Shown piece by piece: positions 23,873 through 56,910 of a stretch of DNA of 64,000 nt. Within the stretch, counting starts at the first letter, position 1. Every line of letters begins with the position of its first letter. The translations under genes and the position numbers were made by a program. A model generated the notes under the pieces. It worked only from the letters and a program-made list of their open reading frames with translations. It made no database searches and was not told the origin of the DNA. Origin of the DNA: Chitinophagales bacterium (GTDB lineage Bacteria; Bacteroidota; Bacteroidia; Chitinophagales; Saprospiraceae); NCBI GenBank assembly GCA_013299105.1, contig JAAFJY010000002.1:248001-312000 (forward strand), written 5' to 3'.

Positions 23873-26224
23873 TTAATTCGCCCCATTGCCACGCTGCTGG
23901 ATGCGCTTGGCTTTTTGCATTGGATTCTCGCCCGGTGCACCAAATGGGGAAGGCGCTCCTTTGAAAATCTCATAACGGCTCAACTGCGTTTTGGGCGGAT
24001 AGAAATTGTTACTCATGTCCACGTCGGCAGTTTCGAGGTATGGATCAAGGGTGATTTGCACCGCCTCTTTGTCCATGATGAAAACTTTGCTTACTTGCTC
24101 GTTATTCAAACGCCAGATTTCGGCGGGGATGCGGAATTCCTTGTTGGTGCCGTCGGCAAAATCGAACCGTACGATCAAGGGCATCACCAAACCGCCTTGG
24201 TTTTTGAAAGTCAGTTCATAGTAATTGCGGTTGTCGGCAAGGGCCTTTTTCTCAGCTTCGCTCAGACCACTCAAGTACTTTTGGTATTCTTCTTTGTCCA
24301 AGATGGTCACAAGTGTTGGATCGTAGTTGTCGTAAAAATCCTTCAGGCTTGGGTCGATATCCTCTTGGGTTTTACTGATCGCTTTTTCGTTGCGAATTGC
24401 AGTGATCCCTTTGGGCTGCTTTTCTTTTTCTTTGGCCGCCACTGGTTTCTCCAGTTCTGGGTTTTTACTGTCCACGCGGAACCACTTTACATTGTCGAGT
24501 GCAATATCCACGTTATCGCAGGTATAGAACCAGCCATTCCAAAACCAATCCAGGTCAATGCCCGATGCGTCTTCCATCGTGCGGAAAAAGTCAGAAGGAG
24601 CTGGGTGCTTAAATTTCCAGCGGTTAGAATACATCTTGAAGGCATGGTCAAACAACTCACGGCCCATCACCGTTTCGCGCAGGATGTTCAAGGCTGCAGC
24701 AGGTTTGCCGTAAGCATTGTTACCCAATTGCGAAACCTGTTCAGAGTTCGTCATGATCGGCTCCTGTGTTTTTTTATCCATTTTCATGTAAGGTACAATG
24801 CTGTGAGCGTTGCCACGGCGAGAAGGGTAATTGCGCTCCCATTGTTGTTCAGCTAGGAATTGCAAGAAAGAGTTGAGGCCTTCATCCATCCAAGTCCACT
24901 GGCGTTCGTCGGAATTGACGATCATCGGAAAGTAGTTGTGCCCCACTTCGTGGATGATTACGCCAATCATACCATATTTCACTTGCTCAGAGTAAGTACC
25001 ATCTTTTGCCGGACGACCGCCATTGAAGCAAATCATCGGATATTCCATCCCGATTTGGTCAGTATGAATCGACCAAGCTGCCGGGTAAGGATAATCAAAA
25101 GTGTAGTGTGAATACCATTTCAGGGTGTGGGCAACTGCCTTGGTAGAATATTGCCCCCACAGCGGATTGCCTTCTTTGGGGTATGCAGACATGGCCATCA
25201 CCACACTACCGTTGTTTTGTTTCACAGCCATTGCATCCCAAATAAATTTACGAGAAGTTGCAAAGGCAAAATCACGTACATTGGATGCAAGAAAGCGCCA
25301 GGTCTTCTCCCCTTTTCCTTTGTCTTTTTCGTTTTCACGTGCCTCTGCTTCAGTCACGATCACCACTGGATTGGTGAATTCAGTTTTGGCCTTTTCGAAA
25401 CGTGCGATTTGGTCTTTGGTCAAAACATCCTTGGTATTTTGCAAGGTGCCCGTAGCAGCCACTACGTGATCATCGGGTACTGTCAAACTTACATCGTAGT
25501 TGCCAAAAGCAAGCGTAAATTCACCGCCGCCAAGGAACTGCTTGTTCTGCCATCCTTCGATGTCGTCATATACGCACATGCGGGGAAAGAACTGTGCAAT
25601 GGTATAAAGATAGTTTTGGTCTTCAGGAAAATATTCCCAGCCAGAGCGCCCACCTAGTTTCAAGCGGTCGTTGATATTGAACCACCATTTTATTTTGAAG
25701 GTATATTTTCCTCCGGGCATAATTGGTGCTGCTGGATCAATCCGCATCATGGTCTTGACCACCGTATATTTCAGGTCTTTCCCAGTTGCGTCTTTTACAA
25801 AATCCACTTTAAACCCACCGTCAAAAGTTGGGGTCATGGCCTCCAATTGACGAGCAGTCATGCGTTCTGACATGCCTCCGCCGCGGGTTTGATAAGTTTC
25901 AGACTCCTTATCGAAAAGATTCTGGTCCATCTGCAACCACAGATACTCCAATACATCGGGTGAGTTATTGGTGTAAGTGATGGTTTCTTCGCCGTACAAT
26001 TGCTGCTTTTCATCGTTCAATTTGAGCTGCATCACATAGTCAGCTTGCTGCTGCCAATACTTGTGACCAGGTCCACCCGCGCCATTTCGGTAAACATTGG
26101 GCGTAGGCAACTCTTCATACAACTGCTTAAACTTGTCTTTTTTATCGGGTTGCTGTTGTGCCCACACCAATGCAGGCAATAATAACAAGAGCAAAAGCAA
26201 CGGTTTTATTCTTTGTGGCTTCAT
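23873..26224 (-). CDS. M1 family metallopeptidase
   Basis: GMEYPMICFNGG and HEVGHNYFPMIVNSDERQWTWMDEGLNSFLQ (HExxH-18-E). Confidence 0.92.
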   Translation of the reverse strand: MKPQRIKPLLLLLLLLPALVWAQQQPDKKDKFKQLYEELPTPNVYRNGAGGPGHKYWQQQADYVMQLKLNDEKQQLYGEETITYTNNSPDVLEYLWLQMDQNLFDKESETYQTRGGGMSERMTARQLEAMTPTFDGGFKVDFVKDATGKDLKYTVVKTMMRIDPAAPIMPGGKYTFKIKWWFNINDRLKLGGRSGWEYFPEDQNYLYTIAQFFPRMCVYDDIEGWQNKQFLGGGEFTLAFGNYDVSLTVPDDHVVAATGTLQNTKDVLTKDQIARFEKAKTEFTNPVVIVTEAEARENEKDKGKGEKTWRFLASNVRDFAFATSRKFIWDAMAVKQNNGSVVMAMSAYPKEGNPLWGQYSTKAVAHTLKWYSHYTFDYPYPAAWSIHTDQIGMEYPMICFNGGRPAKDGTYSEQVKYGMIGVIIHEVGHNYFPMIVNSDERQWTWMDEGLNSFLQFLAEQQWERNYPSRRGNAHSIVPYMKMDKKTQEPIMTNSEQVSQLGNNAYGKPAAALNILRETVMGRELFDHAFKMYSNRWKFKHPAPSDFFRTMEDASGIDLDWFWNGWFYTCDNVDIALDNVKWFRVDSKNPELEKPVAAKEKEKQPKGITAIRNEKAISKTQEDIDPSLKDFYDNYDPTLVTILDKEEYQKYLSGLSEAEKKALADNRNYYELTFKNQGGLVMPLIVRFDFADGTNKEFRIPAEIWRLNNEQVSKVFIMDKEAVQITLDPYLETADVDMSNNFYPPKTQLSRYEIFKGAPSPFGAPGENPMQKAKRIQQRGNGAN

Positions 26225-26342
26225 GACAATGGTTTGGTGAATCAAATCTTTTTAACCCTTTAAAGATATAAAACCCAAAGCCGCCCTGCAAGATGATTTC
26301 CAATTAGTCGATCAACTGCCTATTCCAGCCACTTTACAACAT

Positions 26343-26358
26343 TGTTCTACGTGGAACA
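26343..26358. promoter_or_regulatory. parS-like site 1 (TGTTCTACGTGGAACA)
   Basis: One mismatch to perfect palindrome TGTTCCACGTGGAACA, fits the ParB site family TGTTnCACGTGnAACA. Confidence 0.55.
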
Positions 26359-26410
26359 TCGCCAAAAAATCTTCGAAATCTCTACCATTAAGCGCTAATT
26401 ACTTCATCAA

Positions 26411-26426
26411 TGTTCCACGTAGAACA
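26411..26426. promoter_or_regulatory. parS-like site 2 (TGTTCCACGTAGAACA)
   Basis: One mismatch to TGTTCCACGTGGAACA. Confidence 0.55.
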
Positions 26427-26458
26427 TCGACCACGCAAGTCAAAAAGAGGCTAGATAA

Positions 26459-26502
26459 GTCAAAAGGCCAGATGTTCCACGTGGAACATCTGGCCTTTTG
26501 AC
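26459..26502. promoter_or_regulatory. Perfect 44-bp palindrome containing parS-like site 3 (TGTTCCACGTGGAACA, 26473-26488); also a potential thrC terminator hairpin
   Basis: GTCAAAAGGCCAGATGTTCCAC|GTGGAACATCTGGCCTTTTGAC, every position complementary; 20 bp beyond the thrC stop. Confidence 0.7.
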
Positions 26503-26522
26503 AAAAATAGGCGGCAGAAGCC

Positions 26523-27845
26523 TTAACCAGAATAACGTTCAATCAATAGCTTTTTGAAAGAATTGTACTCAGGCTTGAGAAAAGTAGCTTCTTTTTCTTC
26601 ATCTGCCAAGGCTGCCAGGCGGGCTGGTATCTCGATTTTCCGATCCAAAGTTTCTTCTACGTCGTCGATAAACTTGGCAGGATGCGCTGTTTCAAGAACA
26701 ATTCCCCTGGTATTTGGATGCTCTTTTTGGTAGGCATCCAAGGCTAAATAACCAACCGCGCCGTGTGGATCGATGGTATAATTGTATTTTTCATCCACTT
26801 CGCGCATGGCTATTTGGGTTTCCTGGTCAGGAAAAGCGTAGCCAGAAACCTGATTTCGCATATTGTTCCACGTGGAACTTTCATCTGAACCAAGGAATAT
26901 ATCCAGCATTCTGGCAAAATTAGAGGGATTCCCTACGTCCATTGCATTGGATAAAGTGCGTACTGAAGACCGGGAAATATACTTCCCATGCTCCAAGTAA
27001 GCCGGAACAACATCATTGGCATTGGTGGCTGCAATGAAGTGATGAACAGGCAAACCCATTTTTGCCGCCAAAAGCCCGGCGGTAAGGTTTCCAAAATTGC
27101 CACTCGGTACACAAAAAACCACAGGGTCGCCGCCTTTGGCCAGTTGTTTGTACGCTTCAAAGTAGTACAAAGCTTGGGGAATGAGCCGGGCAATGTTGAT
27201 CGAATTGGCCGAACTGAGGCGTAAATGCTGGTTCAAATCTGTGTCCAGGAAAGCCTGTTTCACCAAAGCCTGGCAATCGTCAAAGGTTCCGTCGATTTCC
27301 AGGGCGCTGATGTTGTGGCCCAAAGTCGTCAATTGCTTTTCTTGTAGCATACTGACCTTGCCAGAAGGGTAGAGGATGACCACCCGAATACCCGGAGTTT
27401 TATAAAAACCCGATGCTACTGCCCCACCTGTATCACCCGAAGTAGCTACCAAAATGGTCAATTCCCGACTTTCACCCCGGTTGAAATAGCTCATCAACTG
27501 GGCCATGAACCTTGCACCAAAGTCTTTGAAAGCAAGAGAAGGTCCGTGAAAAAGTTCGAGGATGTATTTCTGCTCGTCCAATTTGACCACTGGTGCTGGA
27601 AAATCAAAGGCGTTTTTCAGCAAAGTCTTCAAGTCTTCGTCAGGAATAGCTCCTTTGAACAAGGTCTTGCAAACTTTTTCTGCAATCTCCAAAAAAGAGA
27701 AATTTGCCAAGTTTTGGATAAAATCAGTTGGCAAAGCCGGAATATCAAGGGGCATGAACAGGCCATTGTCATCTGGCAAGCCCTTCATCACCGCTTCTTT
27801 CAAGCCTACTTGGTAGGACTTATTCTTTGTACTGTAAAGAATCAT
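26523..27845 (-). CDS. thrC: Threonine synthase
   Basis: KNKSYQVGLKEAVMKGLPDDNGLFMP; HGPSLAFKDFGARFMAQ PLP lysine region. Confidence 0.95.
   Translation of the reverse strand: MILYSTKNKSYQVGLKEAVMKGLPDDNGLFMPLDIPALPTDFIQNLANFSFLEIAEKVCKTLFKGAIPDEDLKTLLKNAFDFPAPVVKLDEQKYILELFHGPSLAFKDFGARFMAQLMSYFNRGESRELTILVATSGDTGGAVASGFYKTPGIRVVILYPSGKVSMLQEKQLTTLGHNISALEIDGTFDDCQALVKQAFLDTDLNQHLRLSSANSINIARLIPQALYYFEAYKQLAKGGDPVVFCVPSGNFGNLTAGLLAAKMGLPVHHFIAATNANDVVPAYLEHGKYISRSSVRTLSNAMDVGNPSNFARMLDIFLGSDESSTWNNMRNQVSGYAFPDQETQIAMREVDEKYNYTIDPHGAVGYLALDAYQKEHPNTRGIVLETAHPAKFIDDVEETLDRKIEIPARLAALADEEKEATFLKPEYNSFKKLLIERYSG
26864..26879. promoter_or_regulatory. parS-like site 4 within thrC (TGTTCCACGTGGAACT)
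   Basis: 15/16 to TGTTCCACGTGGAACA, embedded in coding sequence (STWNN). Confidence 0.5.
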
Positions 27846-27860
27846 GGGAAAAATCTTGGG

Positions 27861-28790
27861 TTAAATACGAACTGAGCCTGCCTGGTTGATCGCCGAAACG
27901 AACACCTGGCAATTGATCCGGGCATCGTGGTAAACCTTGCGCATGGCTTCACCTACATTTTCAGCAATCTCGCGGCCCTGGCAAAGGGCAAAAATTGATG
28001 GCCCCGCGCCCGAAATACTACAGCCCAAAGCACCAGCCCGCAGTGACATGCGCTGGGTAGTTAGGAAATGTGGGATCAATTGCGAGCGCTGTGGCTCGAT
28101 AATCACATCGTGCAAAGAGCGTGAGATGAGTTCATAATCATTGTTGAACAAACCCAAAAGGAACGCCGAAAGATTTCCGCTTTGTTCGATCACTTCGGTC
28201 AGTGGCACTTCGCGGCGCAGAATGGCCCGTGCTTCGCGGGTCAAAACTTCTACATCGGGATAAACTACACTGGCGTACAATTCAGCAGGTACGTTCAATT
28301 GGTGTACGTCCAAGTCGCGGTTGTTGCGGATCAGCACAATGCCACCGAATAGGGAAGGGGCCACGTTGTCGGCATGATAAGCACCATCGGCTAATTGTTC
28401 ACCCAAAACCGCGTAATGCAGGATGCCCCTTTTGTCTAAAGGTTTACCCAGAAGTTCATTCACCGCCATCACCCCTCCTACTGCACTGGCCGCACTGGAC
28501 CCCAAACCACTGCCGAATGGCATTCGTTTGTGTACTTCCATTTCAATCCCACGCTGGCTTTCACCCAATTTTTCCAGCATTTGAATCGCTGCAAAACTTG
28601 CAGTATTCTTCATCGGATCCAGTGACAATTTGCCATTGTCACCCGTGATCTTGCTGATGTAGACACCGGGTTTATCGGAAAATCGGGCCACAATTTCGTC
28701 GCCTGGCTTCTCCAGGGCAAAGCCCAGGATATCGAAACCCACCGCCACGTTGGCTACTGATGCGGGGGCGAAAACACGTACTTCTTGCAT
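27861..28790 (-). CDS. thrB: Homoserine kinase
   Basis: GHMP kinase: VFAPASVANVAVGFDILGFALE, RMPFGSGLGSSAASAVGG. Confidence 0.95.
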   Translation of the reverse strand: MQEVRVFAPASVANVAVGFDILGFALEKPGDEIVARFSDKPGVYISKITGDNGKLSLDPMKNTASFAAIQMLEKLGESQRGIEMEVHKRMPFGSGLGSSAASAVGGVMAVNELLGKPLDKRGILHYAVLGEQLADGAYHADNVAPSLFGGIVLIRNNRDLDVHQLNVPAELYASVVYPDVEVLTREARAILRREVPLTEVIEQSGNLSAFLLGLFNNDYELISRSLHDVIIEPQRSQLIPHFLTTQRMSLRAGALGCSISGAGPSIFALCQGREIAENVGEAMRKVYHDARINCQVFVSAINQAGSVRI

Positions 28791-28828: not shown

Positions 28829-31285
28829 TTAGTTGAGGTAGTTCCCAATTTTGATGATCTCTGAAAAAACCCCAGCTGCGGTTACTTCCGCGCCAGCACC
28901 TGGGCCGCGTACCACCAAAGGCCGCTCTTTGTAACGCTGCGAGGTAAACACGATCATGTTGTCGCTGCCACTGAGTTGGTAAAAGGGATGCGTTGAGTCC
29001 ACACTTTGCAAGCCAATCCGGGCCTGCCCATTTTCCAGGCTGGCTACCATGCGCAAGACTTTTCCTTCGGCAGCAACCCTTGCTGCCAAGTTGGCAAAAT
29101 GTTCATCGGCTTTTTCCAATTCCACAAAAAAATCATCGACCGTTGGTGCATTGCGGCAGGCATCTGGCAGAACATTGTCAATGATCACATTTTCGGCTTC
29201 GAGTGGCAATCCTGTCTCGCGGGCCAAAATGATCAACTTGCGCCGCACGTCAATCCCATTCAAGTCGATACGTGGATCAGGCTCGGTGTAGCCTCGGCTT
29301 TGGGCTTCACGAACAATGCTGCTGAAGGCCATACCTGGTTTGAAGGTGTTGAAAATGAACGAAAGCGAACCGGAAAGTACCGCTTCAATTTTCAATATCT
29401 GGTCACCACTGATGATCAAATCATTTAAAGTAGAAATCACTGGAAGGCCTGCGCCTACATTAGTTTCGTACAAAAACAGAATACCCCGCTTGCGTGCCAC
29501 TTCCTTCAAACGCTTGTATTGCTGATACGAAGATGAAGTAGCAATTTTATTCGGCGTACTGATCGAAATGCTCTCGTTGAGAATTTGCTCATAGTAATTG
29601 GCGATTTCCTCATTGGCCGTATTGTCAATGAAAACAGCGTTGGGTAAATTCATCGAAGTCATCACGGACACAAAATTGGCATGGCTCATGGCTTGTGCTG
29701 ATGCCGTCAACTTGTCGCGCCAATTTTCCAAGGCAATGCCCTCTTCTGCAAAAATCATTTTTTTGCTATTGGCCAAACCCACTACCCGGACATCCAAGGA
29801 GTGTTCTTTTTTCAAAAACTCGGTTTGGGCCTTGATTTGATTTAACAAAGTATTTCCGATTAGCCCAACTCCAACCATGAACACATTGACCGAAGCGGTA
29901 TCTGACAGGAAAAAAGCCTGGTGAACTGCGTTGAGCGCTTTGGCTTCATCGGCCTTGTTGATCACCGTCGAAATATTCAACTCCGATGAACCCTGGGCAA
30001 TGGCAATGACATTGATCCCGTTTTGTCCCAGTGTTTGGAACAAGCGGCCAGAGATGCCAGGGGAGTAGCGCATGTTTTCGCCGATGATGGCAATCACAGC
30101 CAATTGATCCTCCATTTTCAGGGGGTCTACCAGGCCAGAGCGAATTTCGTACTCAAATTCTTTCTCTACTACTTTGACTGCTTTTTTAGCCTTATCAGGT
30201 TGAACGGCAAAACTGATCGAGTGCTCGGATGAGCCTTGGGTAATCAGGATCACATTGATCTGAGCGTTGGCCAGACTGTTGAATAGACGTGCCGCAATCC
30301 CAGGCACCCCAAACAAACCACTGCCCTGCATGGTCAACAAAGCAATGTCACTAATCGAAGAAATGCCTTTAACCGGAGGAGTATTCTCGTCGTGCTGATC
30401 CGAGACCAAAGTGCCGGGATGTTCGGGCTCGAAGGTATTTTTGATCCACATGGGGATCTTTTTACCCAAAACTGGTTGAATGGTAGGTGGGTAAATTACC
30501 TTGGCCCCAAAATGTGACATTTCCATTGCCTCGGCATAAGTCATGGTCGGGATGGAAAAAGCTTTTTTCACTTTGCGTGGGTCGGCAGTCAATACACCGT
30601 TTACATCGGTCCAAATTTCCAAAGACTCCGCTTCGAGGCCAGCAGCCAATAATGCTGCGGTGTAGTCGGAGCCCCCGCGGCCCAGGGTGGTGGTCAAGCC
30701 GCCTTTGGCCGAGGCAATAAATCCAGTGACCACTTGGGTCTGTGGATTTTCCTGGTAGTATTGTTTGATATTGGCATAAGTCTCTTCGAGCTCTACTTTC
30801 GCCGAACCAAAATTCTTATCGGTCTTGATGACCTTGCGGGCGTCGAGGTATGCGGCATCCAAACCATTTTGGCGCATCACCTGGGTAATGATAAAAGCAG
30901 AGTTGCGTTCACCAAAACTGATGACATAATCCATGGTCCGCTGCGAAGCTTCGCGAACCAGGAAAATACCATACAGCAAATTTTTCAACACCTCATGGTT
31001 ATTTTCCAAGCCGCTGATGACTTCGCGCAGATAAGGCTCATTGAGCATTTCTTTGGCTGCATCCAAATGCCGCTTGCTGAATGCCTGAAAATGATCGAAG
31101 TATGATTCATCACCTTGGGCTGCAAGTTTACCCATGTTGATCAATGAATCAGTTACCCCGCCAAAAGCCGAAAATACTACAGTGAATTTTTCTCCTTTTG
31201 CATGATAAGATCTCAAAATATCCACTAACCCACTGATGCGATCAGGGGTCCCCACGGACGAACCGCCGAACTTCAATACCTTCAT
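28829..31285 (-). CDS. thrA: Bifunctional aspartate kinase / homoserine dehydrogenase I
   Basis: MKVLKFGGSSVGTPDRI kinase, ACT domains, homoserine dehydrogenase half (VFMVGVGLIGNTLLNQI ... SRGYTEPDPRIDLNGIDVRRK). Confidence 0.95.
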   Translation of the reverse strand: MKVLKFGGSSVGTPDRISGLVDILRSYHAKGEKFTVVFSAFGGVTDSLINMGKLAAQGDESYFDHFQAFSKRHLDAAKEMLNEPYLREVISGLENNHEVLKNLLYGIFLVREASQRTMDYVISFGERNSAFIITQVMRQNGLDAAYLDARKVIKTDKNFGSAKVELEETYANIKQYYQENPQTQVVTGFIASAKGGLTTTLGRGGSDYTAALLAAGLEAESLEIWTDVNGVLTADPRKVKKAFSIPTMTYAEAMEMSHFGAKVIYPPTIQPVLGKKIPMWIKNTFEPEHPGTLVSDQHDENTPPVKGISSISDIALLTMQGSGLFGVPGIAARLFNSLANAQINVILITQGSSEHSISFAVQPDKAKKAVKVVEKEFEYEIRSGLVDPLKMEDQLAVIAIIGENMRYSPGISGRLFQTLGQNGINVIAIAQGSSELNISTVINKADEAKALNAVHQAFFLSDTASVNVFMVGVGLIGNTLLNQIKAQTEFLKKEHSLDVRVVGLANSKKMIFAEEGIALENWRDKLTASAQAMSHANFVSVMTSMNLPNAVFIDNTANEEIANYYEQILNESISISTPNKIATSSSYQQYKRLKEVARKRGILFLYETNVGAGLPVISTLNDLIISGDQILKIEAVLSGSLSFIFNTFKPGMAFSSIVREAQSRGYTEPDPRIDLNGIDVRRKLIILARETGLPLEAENVIIDNVLPDACRNAPTVDDFFVELEKADEHFANLAARVAAEGKVLRMVASLENGQARIGLQSVDSTHPFYQLSGSDNMIVFTSQRYKERPLVVRGPGAGAEVTAAGVFSEIIKIGNYLN

Positions 31286-34058: not shown

Positions 34059-34079
34059 TTATCCACACACTTATTCACA
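34059..34079 (+). other. Two perfect DnaA boxes (TTATCCACA, TTATTCACA)
   Basis: 34059-34067 and 34071-34079 in the aat/ctaA gap. Confidence 0.65.
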
Positions 34080-35163
34080 TTTTTGTTTCTTGGGGCTCTA
34101 CTAGTTGATAATTCAAGTACAAAACCACCGTCAGCAAGAGCAGTGCTCCTGCTTGATGGAATACGCCCAAGCCAACAGGAATGGTTCCTACACAGTTGAT
34201 TACGGTCAGAATTCCCAATAAAACTTGCAGCAAAGTTACTACCAATAAAGCATAAATTCCATTTTTAACCTGTTTTGTGACAGAAATTTGAACCCCTTTA
34301 AAAACATAATACAACACCATGATTGTCAAGGCGTAAGCAACACCTCGATGCAAGGTGTGTACCAAAGCGGGCATGAATGAGCTGCGATCGTATTCGTTAA
34401 AATTTTTACTATTCCATTCACCCCCATCAAACAAAATACCAGGAATCCATTGCCCCCCAATATCAGGCCAAGTAGGGAATACCAACCCTGCCTTCATTCC
34501 TGACATGATGCCCCCAAGGATGATCTGAAAGCCTAAAACATAAGCCAGCGCTTTTCCCCACTTTTTCAACCAATTCCTGTGGATAACTTGTGGATAAAAG
34601 GAAGAACCTTGCACGGTCGTAAGAAAAGTCCAAAACAAGTACCCATATACACACAACGCAATCGACAAGTGCATGGTTAGTTTATACGCATTGACCCAAG
34701 GTCTTTTGACCAATCCACTGGCAACCATGATCCACCCAAAAGATGCCGCGAGCGCCGCTAATAAGACCACAATTCCTAAGCGACGCATAAGCGCAGGATC
34801 AATCCACCCCTTGCGCCAGAAGAACAAAAAGGGGATCAAAAAAACGAAGCCCATGCTGCGGGCCCACAAACGATGAAAATATTCCCAGAAATAAATAAAC
34901 TTGAAATCGGTCATGCTCATGCCCTCATTGATTTTTGCATACTGCGGAGTGGCCTTGTACAAAACAAAAGCTTCTTGCCATTGCGCGGCATTGAGCGGCG
35001 GCAAAGTTCCCGTTACGATTTCCCATTTGGTAATGGACAAACCAGAACCTGTAAGTCGGGTCACGCCTCCAATGACTACCTGCATAAAAACCATAAATAC
35101 GCCAATGAATAGCCAAATTTTGACTGTGGCGGGATATTTTTTCGCTTGGTTTGTTGTTTCCAT
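34075..35163 (-). CDS. ctaA: Heme A synthase (COX15/CtaA family)
   Basis: FMQVVIGGVTRLTGSGLSITKWEIVTGTLPPLN; eight predicted TMs. Confidence 0.92.
   Translation of the reverse strand: METTNQAKKYPATVKIWLFIGVFMVFMQVVIGGVTRLTGSGLSITKWEIVTGTLPPLNAAQWQEAFVLYKATPQYAKINEGMSMTDFKFIYFWEYFHRLWARSMGFVFLIPFLFFWRKGWIDPALMRRLGIVVLLAALAASFGWIMVASGLVKRPWVNAYKLTMHLSIALCVYGYLFWTFLTTVQGSSFYPQVIHRNWLKKWGKALAYVLGFQIILGGIMSGMKAGLVFPTWPDIGGQWIPGILFDGGEWNSKNFNEYDRSSFMPALVHTLHRGVAYALTIMVLYYVFKGVQISVTKQVKNGIYALLVVTLLQVLLGILTVINCVGTIPVGLGVFHQAGALLLLTVVLYLNYQLVEPQETKM
34578..34597 (-). other. Two perfect DnaA boxes (TGTGGATAA x2) within ctaA
   Basis: 34578-34586 and 34589-34597. Confidence 0.5.
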
Positions 35164-35253
35164 TTTTCTCACTTGCTTCTTACCCAGGTCTTCCTCCTAG
35201 GGATTACAAAGATAGCCTCTTTTGCGACTTGAAAAATTTTGGGCTTGCCCCTT

Positions 35254-35727
35254 ATGGTTAATTATATTGATTTTAAATTTCAATAAATTCATCCTTCATC
35301 GTCGTCAGTGATGTGAGTTTGTGGAAAAAAAAGTGAATAAAAATTTGTTTGGGTTTATACTCACATCACATTGAGTTTACCCACAGTTTACCAACAACTG
35401 AAAGTGCTGTGGATTCAAGATTTTGCCAGTTTATGCACAAGCTGTTGGTACGTTATTCAGGGGATAACTTTTTTTGGCGCACTTGTTGGGAGAGCGTTAA
35501 ACTAACACCCCAAAAAGGGGCAAAAGCCCTTGTTGCAATGTGGAAAACTGGGGATAAGTCGCCCCTGAACGATGACAAGTGAGGGAATGTGGATAAAGTG
35601 CTACTTATTAAGCGTGAGTTCACAAAAAGTATGTTGAAAAGCGGTTTAGCTAAAAGCCTGAAAGTGAAGCAGTTTTTTGAAAATCCCAAAAATCGAGTGT
35701 GGATAAATACTTGTACATCGTGGATAA
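35254..35727. other. Candidate oriC: AT-rich stretch plus DnaA-box cluster in an ORF-poor intergenic region
   Basis: AT-rich 35254-35292; perfect TTATNCACA at 35431-35439 (+), 35588-35596 (-), 35698-35706 (-); one-mismatch boxes at 35332-35340, 35377-35385, 35540-35548, 35549-35557, 35719-35727; inverted repeat GTGATGTGAGT/ACTCACATCAC (35308-35318/35359-35369). Confidence 0.65.
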
Positions 35728-55867: not shown

Positions 55868-56910
55868 TTTGCTTGGGTATTTTCGAGTTGAATCAGCAAG
55901 CGGCTTTCGAAAACTTCGCCCGATGCGCGATAAGAAAATTCGTATTGTCCGGCATAGCGCAAATTCAAGCGTTGTTGGATATTGCTCAGGCCAACGCCAC
56001 CAACTTGGTCCTTTTGCAGGTCATTTTCCTGAAAAGTGTTTTGCGTAAAAAACAGCAACTGGCCACCCTCACAAGTCAAGTCAAGCTTGGCAAATGCGCT
56101 GGGATTGAGCTCAAAATCGGCGTGTTTGAAGCAATTTTCTACCAGTGGAATGAGGATCATGGGCTCGATCTCCACACCGCCGAAATCTCCTTGCAAGTTG
56201 AATCTAATGTCAAGTGGAGCTTCGCTGCGCATTTGGTACAAGACGATGAAATTTTGGATGTGCTGGACTTCTTTCTTTAAATCTACCGTTTTTTGCTGGC
56301 CGTCGTAAATCACATACCGCAGCAGTTCGGATAATTTCAGGAGCATCCTGGGCGCTTCAGCGGACTTCAGTTCTACCAGGCTGTAAATGTTGTGCAGGGC
56401 ATTGAAGAGGAAATGGGGATTGATTTGGGCTTTCAAAAAATCAAGCTGTGCAGCCTGTTGGGCGGCTAGCAATTCCTGGTTTTGTTGCTCCCGTTGTTCG
56501 CGATTGAGCAGCAAAGCATACGCAACACCCAAAGCAGCAATCAAGGCGGAAGTTGCTTGCACCAACACCGAAACCCGGATCAATTGACCAAAGATTTCTT
56601 GTGAATCAAGTGCCTGGGGCAATTGTTTGAGCAATTGATAATTCACTAAGGTCCGTGGTGCGCTGATCAGCAACAATAAGCCTAAAATGGCCAATACAAA
56701 CCACCACATTCGGCCCCGCAAGTAGAAACGCTGAAAAAGATAAGCGCTGCCGTAAAAAAGCAAAGCCAATAAGGAAATGTTGATACTGGCGTGCAACAAG
56801 ACGAGGCGCATGGGAAAAAACAGGCCAAAAACCGAGATGCCTCCAAGGAACAAAAAGCCCCATACGAGCAAGTGTACTGCTACCCGCCTTTGCTGTCGTT
56901 TAGGTTCCAT
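55864..56910 (-). CDS. LytS-like sensor histidine kinase
   Basis: LKAQINPHFLFNALHNIYSLVELKSAEAPRMLLKLSELLRYVIYD; overlaps regulator by 4 nt. Confidence 0.92.
   Translation of the reverse strand: MEPKRQQRRVAVHLLVWGFLFLGGISVFGLFFPMRLVLLHASINISLLALLFYGSAYLFQRFYLRGRMWWFVLAILGLLLLISAPRTLVNYQLLKQLPQALDSQEIFGQLIRVSVLVQATSALIAALGVAYALLLNREQREQQNQELLAAQQAAQLDFLKAQINPHFLFNALHNIYSLVELKSAEAPRMLLKLSELLRYVIYDGQQKTVDLKKEVQHIQNFIVLYQMRSEAPLDIRFNLQGDFGGVEIEPMILIPLVENCFKHADFELNPSAFAKLDLTCEGGQLLFFTQNTFQENDLQKDQVGGVGLSNIQQRLNLRYAGQYEFSYRASGEVFESRLLIQLENTQAK

Follow-up and report, generated by a model that had tools for sequence, protein, structure and literature searches.

A very likely chromosomal centromere (parS cluster) at the 3' end of thrC in a Saprospiraceae-group bacterium

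Introduction

The 3' end of a threonine synthase gene (thrC) in a draft genome of the Saprospiraceae group is surrounded by four short palindromes that resemble parS. This raises the question of whether these palindromes form the chromosomal centromere of the bacterium or have a local role at the genes beside which they lie. The parS consensus across phyla is TGTTTCACGTGAAACA (PMC10197239). In P. aeruginosa, parS1 to parS4 are clustered less than 16 kb from oriC, and 9 of the 10 parS sites are predicted to lie within coding sequences (PMC4368675). The window that was analyzed is the whole stretch of 64,000 nucleotides at positions 248001 to 312000 of one contig (G000:C12), from a draft genome of 7,665,608 bases (7.67 Mb) in 77 contigs.

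Results

Four parS-like sites are confined to one short stretch of the genome. Site 1 (TGTTCTACGTGGAACA, positions 26343 to 26358) and site 2 (TGTTCCACGTAGAACA, 26411 to 26426) are intergenic, between thrC and a gene for a peptidase family M1 protein; site 3 (TGTTCCACGTGGAACA, 26473 to 26488) is a perfect palindrome at the core of a hairpin; and site 4 (26864 to 26879, minus strand) lies within thrC. The first three carry no strand assignment. All four sequences were recovered at 26343, 26411, 26473, and 26864, the positions given in the initial annotation, and their measured span is 537 bp, in agreement with its stretch of 540 bp. Each is a 16-bp palindrome that matches the ParB consensus with its CACGTG core, with one core change (TACGTG or CACGTA) in two of the four, and together they straddle the thrC stop codon, with one site inside the gene and three outside.

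The initial annotation had seen no further copy of the motif in the window and had suggested a genome-wide scan, in which a uniform scatter of matches would speak against parS. When the whole draft genome was scanned with TGTTCYACGTRGAACA at up to two mismatches, these four sites were the only matches, so that the motif is not scattered. A reversed control pattern gave 6 matches at the same threshold (random expectation, about 7 scattered matches), and with one mismatch allowed, the pattern matches 4 times in the genome and the control 0 times. A span as short as 537 bp would contain four randomly placed points with a probability of about 1e-12. In 100 dinucleotide-preserving shuffles of the window, the mean number of matches at up to two mismatches was 0.26 and the maximum was 2, and no shuffle reached 5. 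A fifth match in the window, at 56037 (TGTTTTGCGTAAAAAA), was set aside as a chance occurrence, since it lacks the core. The lack of stray parS-like sites (zero against about 6 to 7 expected) looked suggestive of avoidance, an idea that was dropped because 260 kb of the genome's own sequence showed no depletion at three to four mismatches.

The genome encodes ParA, ParB, and SMC, with parA and parB at a distance from parS. The initial annotation had placed parA and parB out of view of the window, and they are indeed on another contig (G000:C15, about 43.3 to 45.1 kb), where the single over-threshold ParB (312 aa) directly follows ParA (267 aa). This ParB scores 160 bits on TIGR00180 (cutoff, 58 bits), and a canonical SMC is present as well (SMC_prok_B, 968 bits against a cutoff of 567). 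Residues R173 and G201 of Caulobacter ParB contact parS, and Noc has Q and R there (PMC7383237). In an alignment with solved ParB and Noc chains, the ParB of this bacterium has R and G at the corresponding positions, as would be expected of a protein with parS-type specificity.

The parS cluster lies near a candidate replication origin. A cluster of DnaA boxes occupies positions 34059 to 35727 (no strand assigned), at a local cumulative GC-skew minimum at 35299, and is 7.2 to 9.4 kb from the parS sites, where the initial annotation had estimated 8 to 9 kb and had proposed measuring the distance to a skew-defined origin. Since the window's contig shows only weak overall GC skew, as does a relative of the same genus (G019, with an 8.37-Mb chromosome), the DnaA-box cluster is a candidate oriC only. 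The association of parS with DnaA boxes and a local skew minimum is repeated in G064 and G059, and G019 shows the boxes alone, which start about 9 kb from its parS. In G064 (a single contig of 7.5 Mb), the sampled skew reverses between 2.21 and 2.37 Mb, with its local minimum, at 2,349,196, next to DnaA boxes and 14.6 kb from the parS pair; G059 has ten perfect DnaA boxes within the 20 kb that contain most of its parS sites. Whole-chromosome skew shows a clear switch in G064 only, and in G019 and the sampled G059 it is too weak alone to place an origin. In the complete or near-complete relatives G019, G059, G064, and G130, parS is separated from the dnaA gene and from parB by roughly 1 to 4 Mb each, so that an assembly rotated to dnaA would not begin at the origin. 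The likely origin region here is marked by the parS cluster and not by dnaA, in agreement with a published report that dnaA is not in every case a marker of the origin (PMC10197239).

Taken together, the uniqueness of the sites, the presence of ParA and ParB, the specificity residues of ParB, and the origin-proximal position support the identity of the sites as a ParB-family parS cluster. It is very likely that these four sites are the chromosomal parS cluster of this bacterium and that the first reading of the locus was correct; two features described below, the fixed codons at site 4 and the 44-bp palindrome around site 3, were absent from that reading.

The position of parS beside thrC is conserved. 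The gene containing site 4 (26523 to 27845, minus strand) was correctly named thrC in the initial annotation, as it scores 296 bits on TIGR00260 against a cutoff of 167. It is accompanied on the same strand by thrB, for homoserine kinase (27861 to 28790), and by a thrA-like gene for aspartokinase/homoserine dehydrogenase (28829 to 31285), and the conserved neighbor on the other side of the cluster is the M1 peptidase gene (23873 to 26245, minus strand). Among 29 loci (L087 to L115) that were fetched by the parS pattern alone, with their neighbors disregarded, thrC, thrB, or the M1 peptidase gene was within 1.5 kb of parS in 27, and the two exceptions are both cut short by contig ends. Sites of the TGTTTCACGTGAAACA form occupy the same genomic place as the form in the window, and most strong sites of this second form have the same neighbors (L178, L181, L184, L186, L187, and L189 to L192). 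Nonconsensus matches (L177, L179, L188, L193, and L194) have none of the thrC, thrB, and M1 peptidase neighbors and act as a negative control. The arrangement at thrC, with one parS inside the gene and another at the core of its putative terminator, is kept across much of the bacterial family. At one locus (L199, from G064), near position 1501, parS is read in another frame as MFHVEH, with which an extended frame begins upstream of the M1 peptidase; gene starts may be miscalled as a result.

Of 151 genomes drawn from the family, 124 had a site within one mismatch, whereas the control pattern was absent from nearly all, and ParB was found in 143. Many of the remaining 27 genomes have TGTTTCACGTGAAACA instead, either exact or with one base changed. 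In four genomes with ParB (G066, G084, G091, and G140), no parS was found within two mismatches of TGTTTCACGTGAAACA or one mismatch of TGTTCCACGTGGAACA; G091 does contain the 14-mer GTTCCACGTGGAAC. Two genomes that are 100% complete (G036 and G105) lack both a ParB match at an E value of 0.001 or less and a parS with up to one mismatch to TGTTCCACGTGGAACA. Their TGTTTCACGTGAAACA-type matches are weak and lack the CACGTG core, and a joint loss of ParB and parS is possible in these two. A phylum-wide search found parS clusters in 87 of 120 genomes outside the family, and in many genomes of one family in that search (f15) pairs of TGTTTCACGTGAAACA lie about 1.9 kb apart. The loci L026, L030, L034 to L039, and L049 (Dyadobacter) share a conserved TGTTCCACGTGGAAAT-like sequence some 6.9 kb beyond the thrC stop codon, a distance that hardly varies among eight loci. 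This sequence could be a parS that has degenerated or a run of conserved codons with no relation to parS.

Site 4 coincides with thrC codons 323 to 327 (AGT TCC ACG TGG AAC A), which encode Ser-Ser-Thr-Trp-Asn. The same five codons (xGT-TCC/TTC-ACG-TGG-AAC) hold a parS site in 31 related thrC genes, that of the window included, and in relatives without the site this stretch of ThrC is variable (GDDWN, NGDLD, REDQT, and so on). This contrast suggests that the site dictates this part of ThrC. The leading codon, NGT, encodes Cys, Ser, Gly, or Arg with the G and the T constant, and in L016, L017, and L095 TTC replaces TCC, which changes Ser to Phe by exactly the C-to-T change that parS tolerates. 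ACG and AAC are used at 100% in the site, compared with 21% of Thr and 37% of Asn codons overall in these genes, and columns 325 and 327 are the most codon invariant of 417 (median top-codon share at conserved residues, 0.45); as the 31 genes were selected for having the site, these codon figures describe its retention and are not an independent test. The NGT leading codon, the replacement of Ser by Phe, and the fixed ACG and AAC point to selection on DNA rather than on protein. A Lewinella-type clade has lost the site, and the four genes there that retain Thr all use ACC. On a tree of 97 ThrC proteins, presence and absence of the site require 6 label changes, compared with 26.5 in shuffles, which suggests that the family has had the site for a long time, with a few losses or gains. 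A loosely drawn pattern for the in-gene site across the family was poorly designed and was excluded from counting. In a predicted structure (mean pLDDT, 91), the site residues open a helix that follows a loop modeled with lower confidence, a position that could plausibly tolerate imposed residues.

Site 3 is nested within a 44-bp perfect palindrome (26459 to 26502, minus strand), a candidate intrinsic terminator of the thrA-thrB-thrC genes. The palindrome begins about 20 bp and ends about 64 bp past the thrC stop codon and is predicted to form a 20-pair RNA hairpin flanked by an A tract and a T tract; folded as RNA, it and its surroundings (101 nt) give -44.7 kcal/mol, with a z score of -7.9. 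The locus thus has a stable, G+C-rich hairpin just after a gene, as intrinsic terminators do. Its T run on the thrC strand, TTTT, is short and lies inside the outer stem, with longer runs in relatives, and the hairpin was not listed by a generic terminator scan, probably because of the placement and shortness of this run.

For comparison, the 14 positions beyond the 16-mer were examined at the first parS site after the thrC stop codon, with the in-gene sites as controls. The mean number of extra Watson-Crick pairs was 6.65 of 14 at the first downstream sites versus 4.94 at the in-gene sites. Several downstream sites had all 14 arm positions paired, and at least eight contiguous extra pairs occurred at none of the in-gene controls. 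Folds with a z score of -3 or lower were found at 12 of 37 first downstream sites versus 3 of 31 in-gene sites, to which two hairpins at later sites (L112 and L014) can be added. In 14 long-arm cases (the window and 13 relatives), which were picked for their palindromes, the arm sequences differ between cases yet still pair: positions 9 to 14 are paired in all 14, and all four pair types occur at positions 11, 12, and 13. T runs follow most of these 14 hairpins on the thrC strand. The 16-bp core is nearly invariant, whereas the outer arms vary between genera, and at about 60% of the downstream sites the long arms are missing. From the folds and arm sequences, the hairpin is likely an intrinsic terminator with parS as its inner stem.

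Discussion

The sites themselves, their uniqueness in the genome, the adjacent DnaA boxes, the conservation, and the covarying arms were all computed here, and from them we infer with high confidence that the cluster serves a ParABS system of this Saprospiraceae-group bacterium as chromosomal centromere (parS). The ParB from the other contig would load at the four palindromes and spread along the neighboring DNA as a CTP-dependent clamp, and together with ParA, and probably SMC, it would bring the freshly replicated origin region to each of the daughter cells. One parS copy, overlapping thrC codons, would be held by selection on DNA. Another sits within the hairpin at which transcription of the thr genes most likely stops, and the same palindrome may thus function in DNA, where ParB would bind it, and in RNA, as the stem of a terminator.

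Palindromes beside a biosynthetic operon are typical of operators, and three of the four sites are upstream of the M1 peptidase gene, so that they could be read as operators of a local transcription factor for thrABC or for the peptidase gene rather than as a centromere. We consider this very unlikely, because the sites cluster where the thr genes end, with one of them in coding sequence, match the ParB consensus, and are unique in the genome; they also occur where thrC is not a neighbor (L087, L099, L104, L113, and L184), and in relatives whose parS has the TGTTTCACGTGAAACA form, the parS consensus across phyla, that form occupies the same place. That the 44-bp palindrome is a terminator only, with a coincidental match to the parS core or to the thrC codons, would agree with its strong fold and with how common hairpins past stop codons are, but the core stays nearly constant while the outer arms change between genera, and no in-gene control reaches eight contiguous extra pairs; we regard coincidence as extremely improbable.

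Similarly remote is the view that these are Noc-type (NBS) sites or partition sites of a plasmid or an integrated element. The best PDB match of the ParB is Noc, and the protein's score on the Noc model, 205 bits, is higher than its 160 bits on the generic ParB model, but it is far below the Noc cutoff of 315 bits. The Noc residues Q173, K179, K184, and R201 are absent, the protein having R, Y, N, and G at these positions, and the sites carry the CACGTG core. The surroundings of the cluster are conserved chromosomal genes, without replication or mobility genes, and a 47-bp piece from around site 2, when searched against plasmids, gave no meaningful match.

The chromosomal parS cluster so identified shares with the ParABS systems of the B. 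subtilis and Caulobacter type (TGTTTCACGTGAAACA) the 16-bp palindrome with a CACGTG core, the cluster near the origin, and ParA and ParB with SMC, but its perfect form here is TGTTCCACGTGGAACA, and parAB and dnaA are megabases from parS in complete relatives. As in P. aeruginosa, there are four sites near oriC, within 7 to 9 kb here, but unlike in P. aeruginosa, the genome has no further sites, one site falls on the same thrC codons across much of the family, and another is in a covarying hairpin. In comparison with intrinsic terminators, with which the hairpin shares its G+C-rich stem just past the stop codon and, in most relatives, a T run on the gene's strand, the apical 16 bp are parS, and the T run in the window is short and part of the stem. 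Four-site clusters near oriC and parS sites within coding sequences are already known kinds of arrangement. Our literature search, of partial coverage, found no report of parS in thrC or nested in a terminator, and the terminator-nested, codon-frozen arrangement looks undescribed.

RNA polymerases are reported to block or attenuate ParB spreading (PMC7053999), so that stopping transcription at parS could protect ParB loading. This raises the possibility, which we put forward tentatively and would sooner doubt than assert, that a dual-purpose element, both parS and thr terminator, is kept by selection: RNA polymerase would be stopped at the ParB loading site and the platform protected, the arms would covary around a core that cannot change, and the in-gene parS would long have forced xSTWN into threonine synthase. 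With RNA (terminator) and DNA (centromere) functions in one palindrome, interference between transcription and ParB loading becomes testable, and thrC offers a clean natural example of a DNA-binding site that appears to prevail over the sequence preferred by the protein itself. For this family of large, mostly uncultured Bacteroidota, our results locate the very likely centromere and the probable origin region and suggest that, in the complete relatives that were examined, the position of dnaA is megabases off as a guide to the origin.
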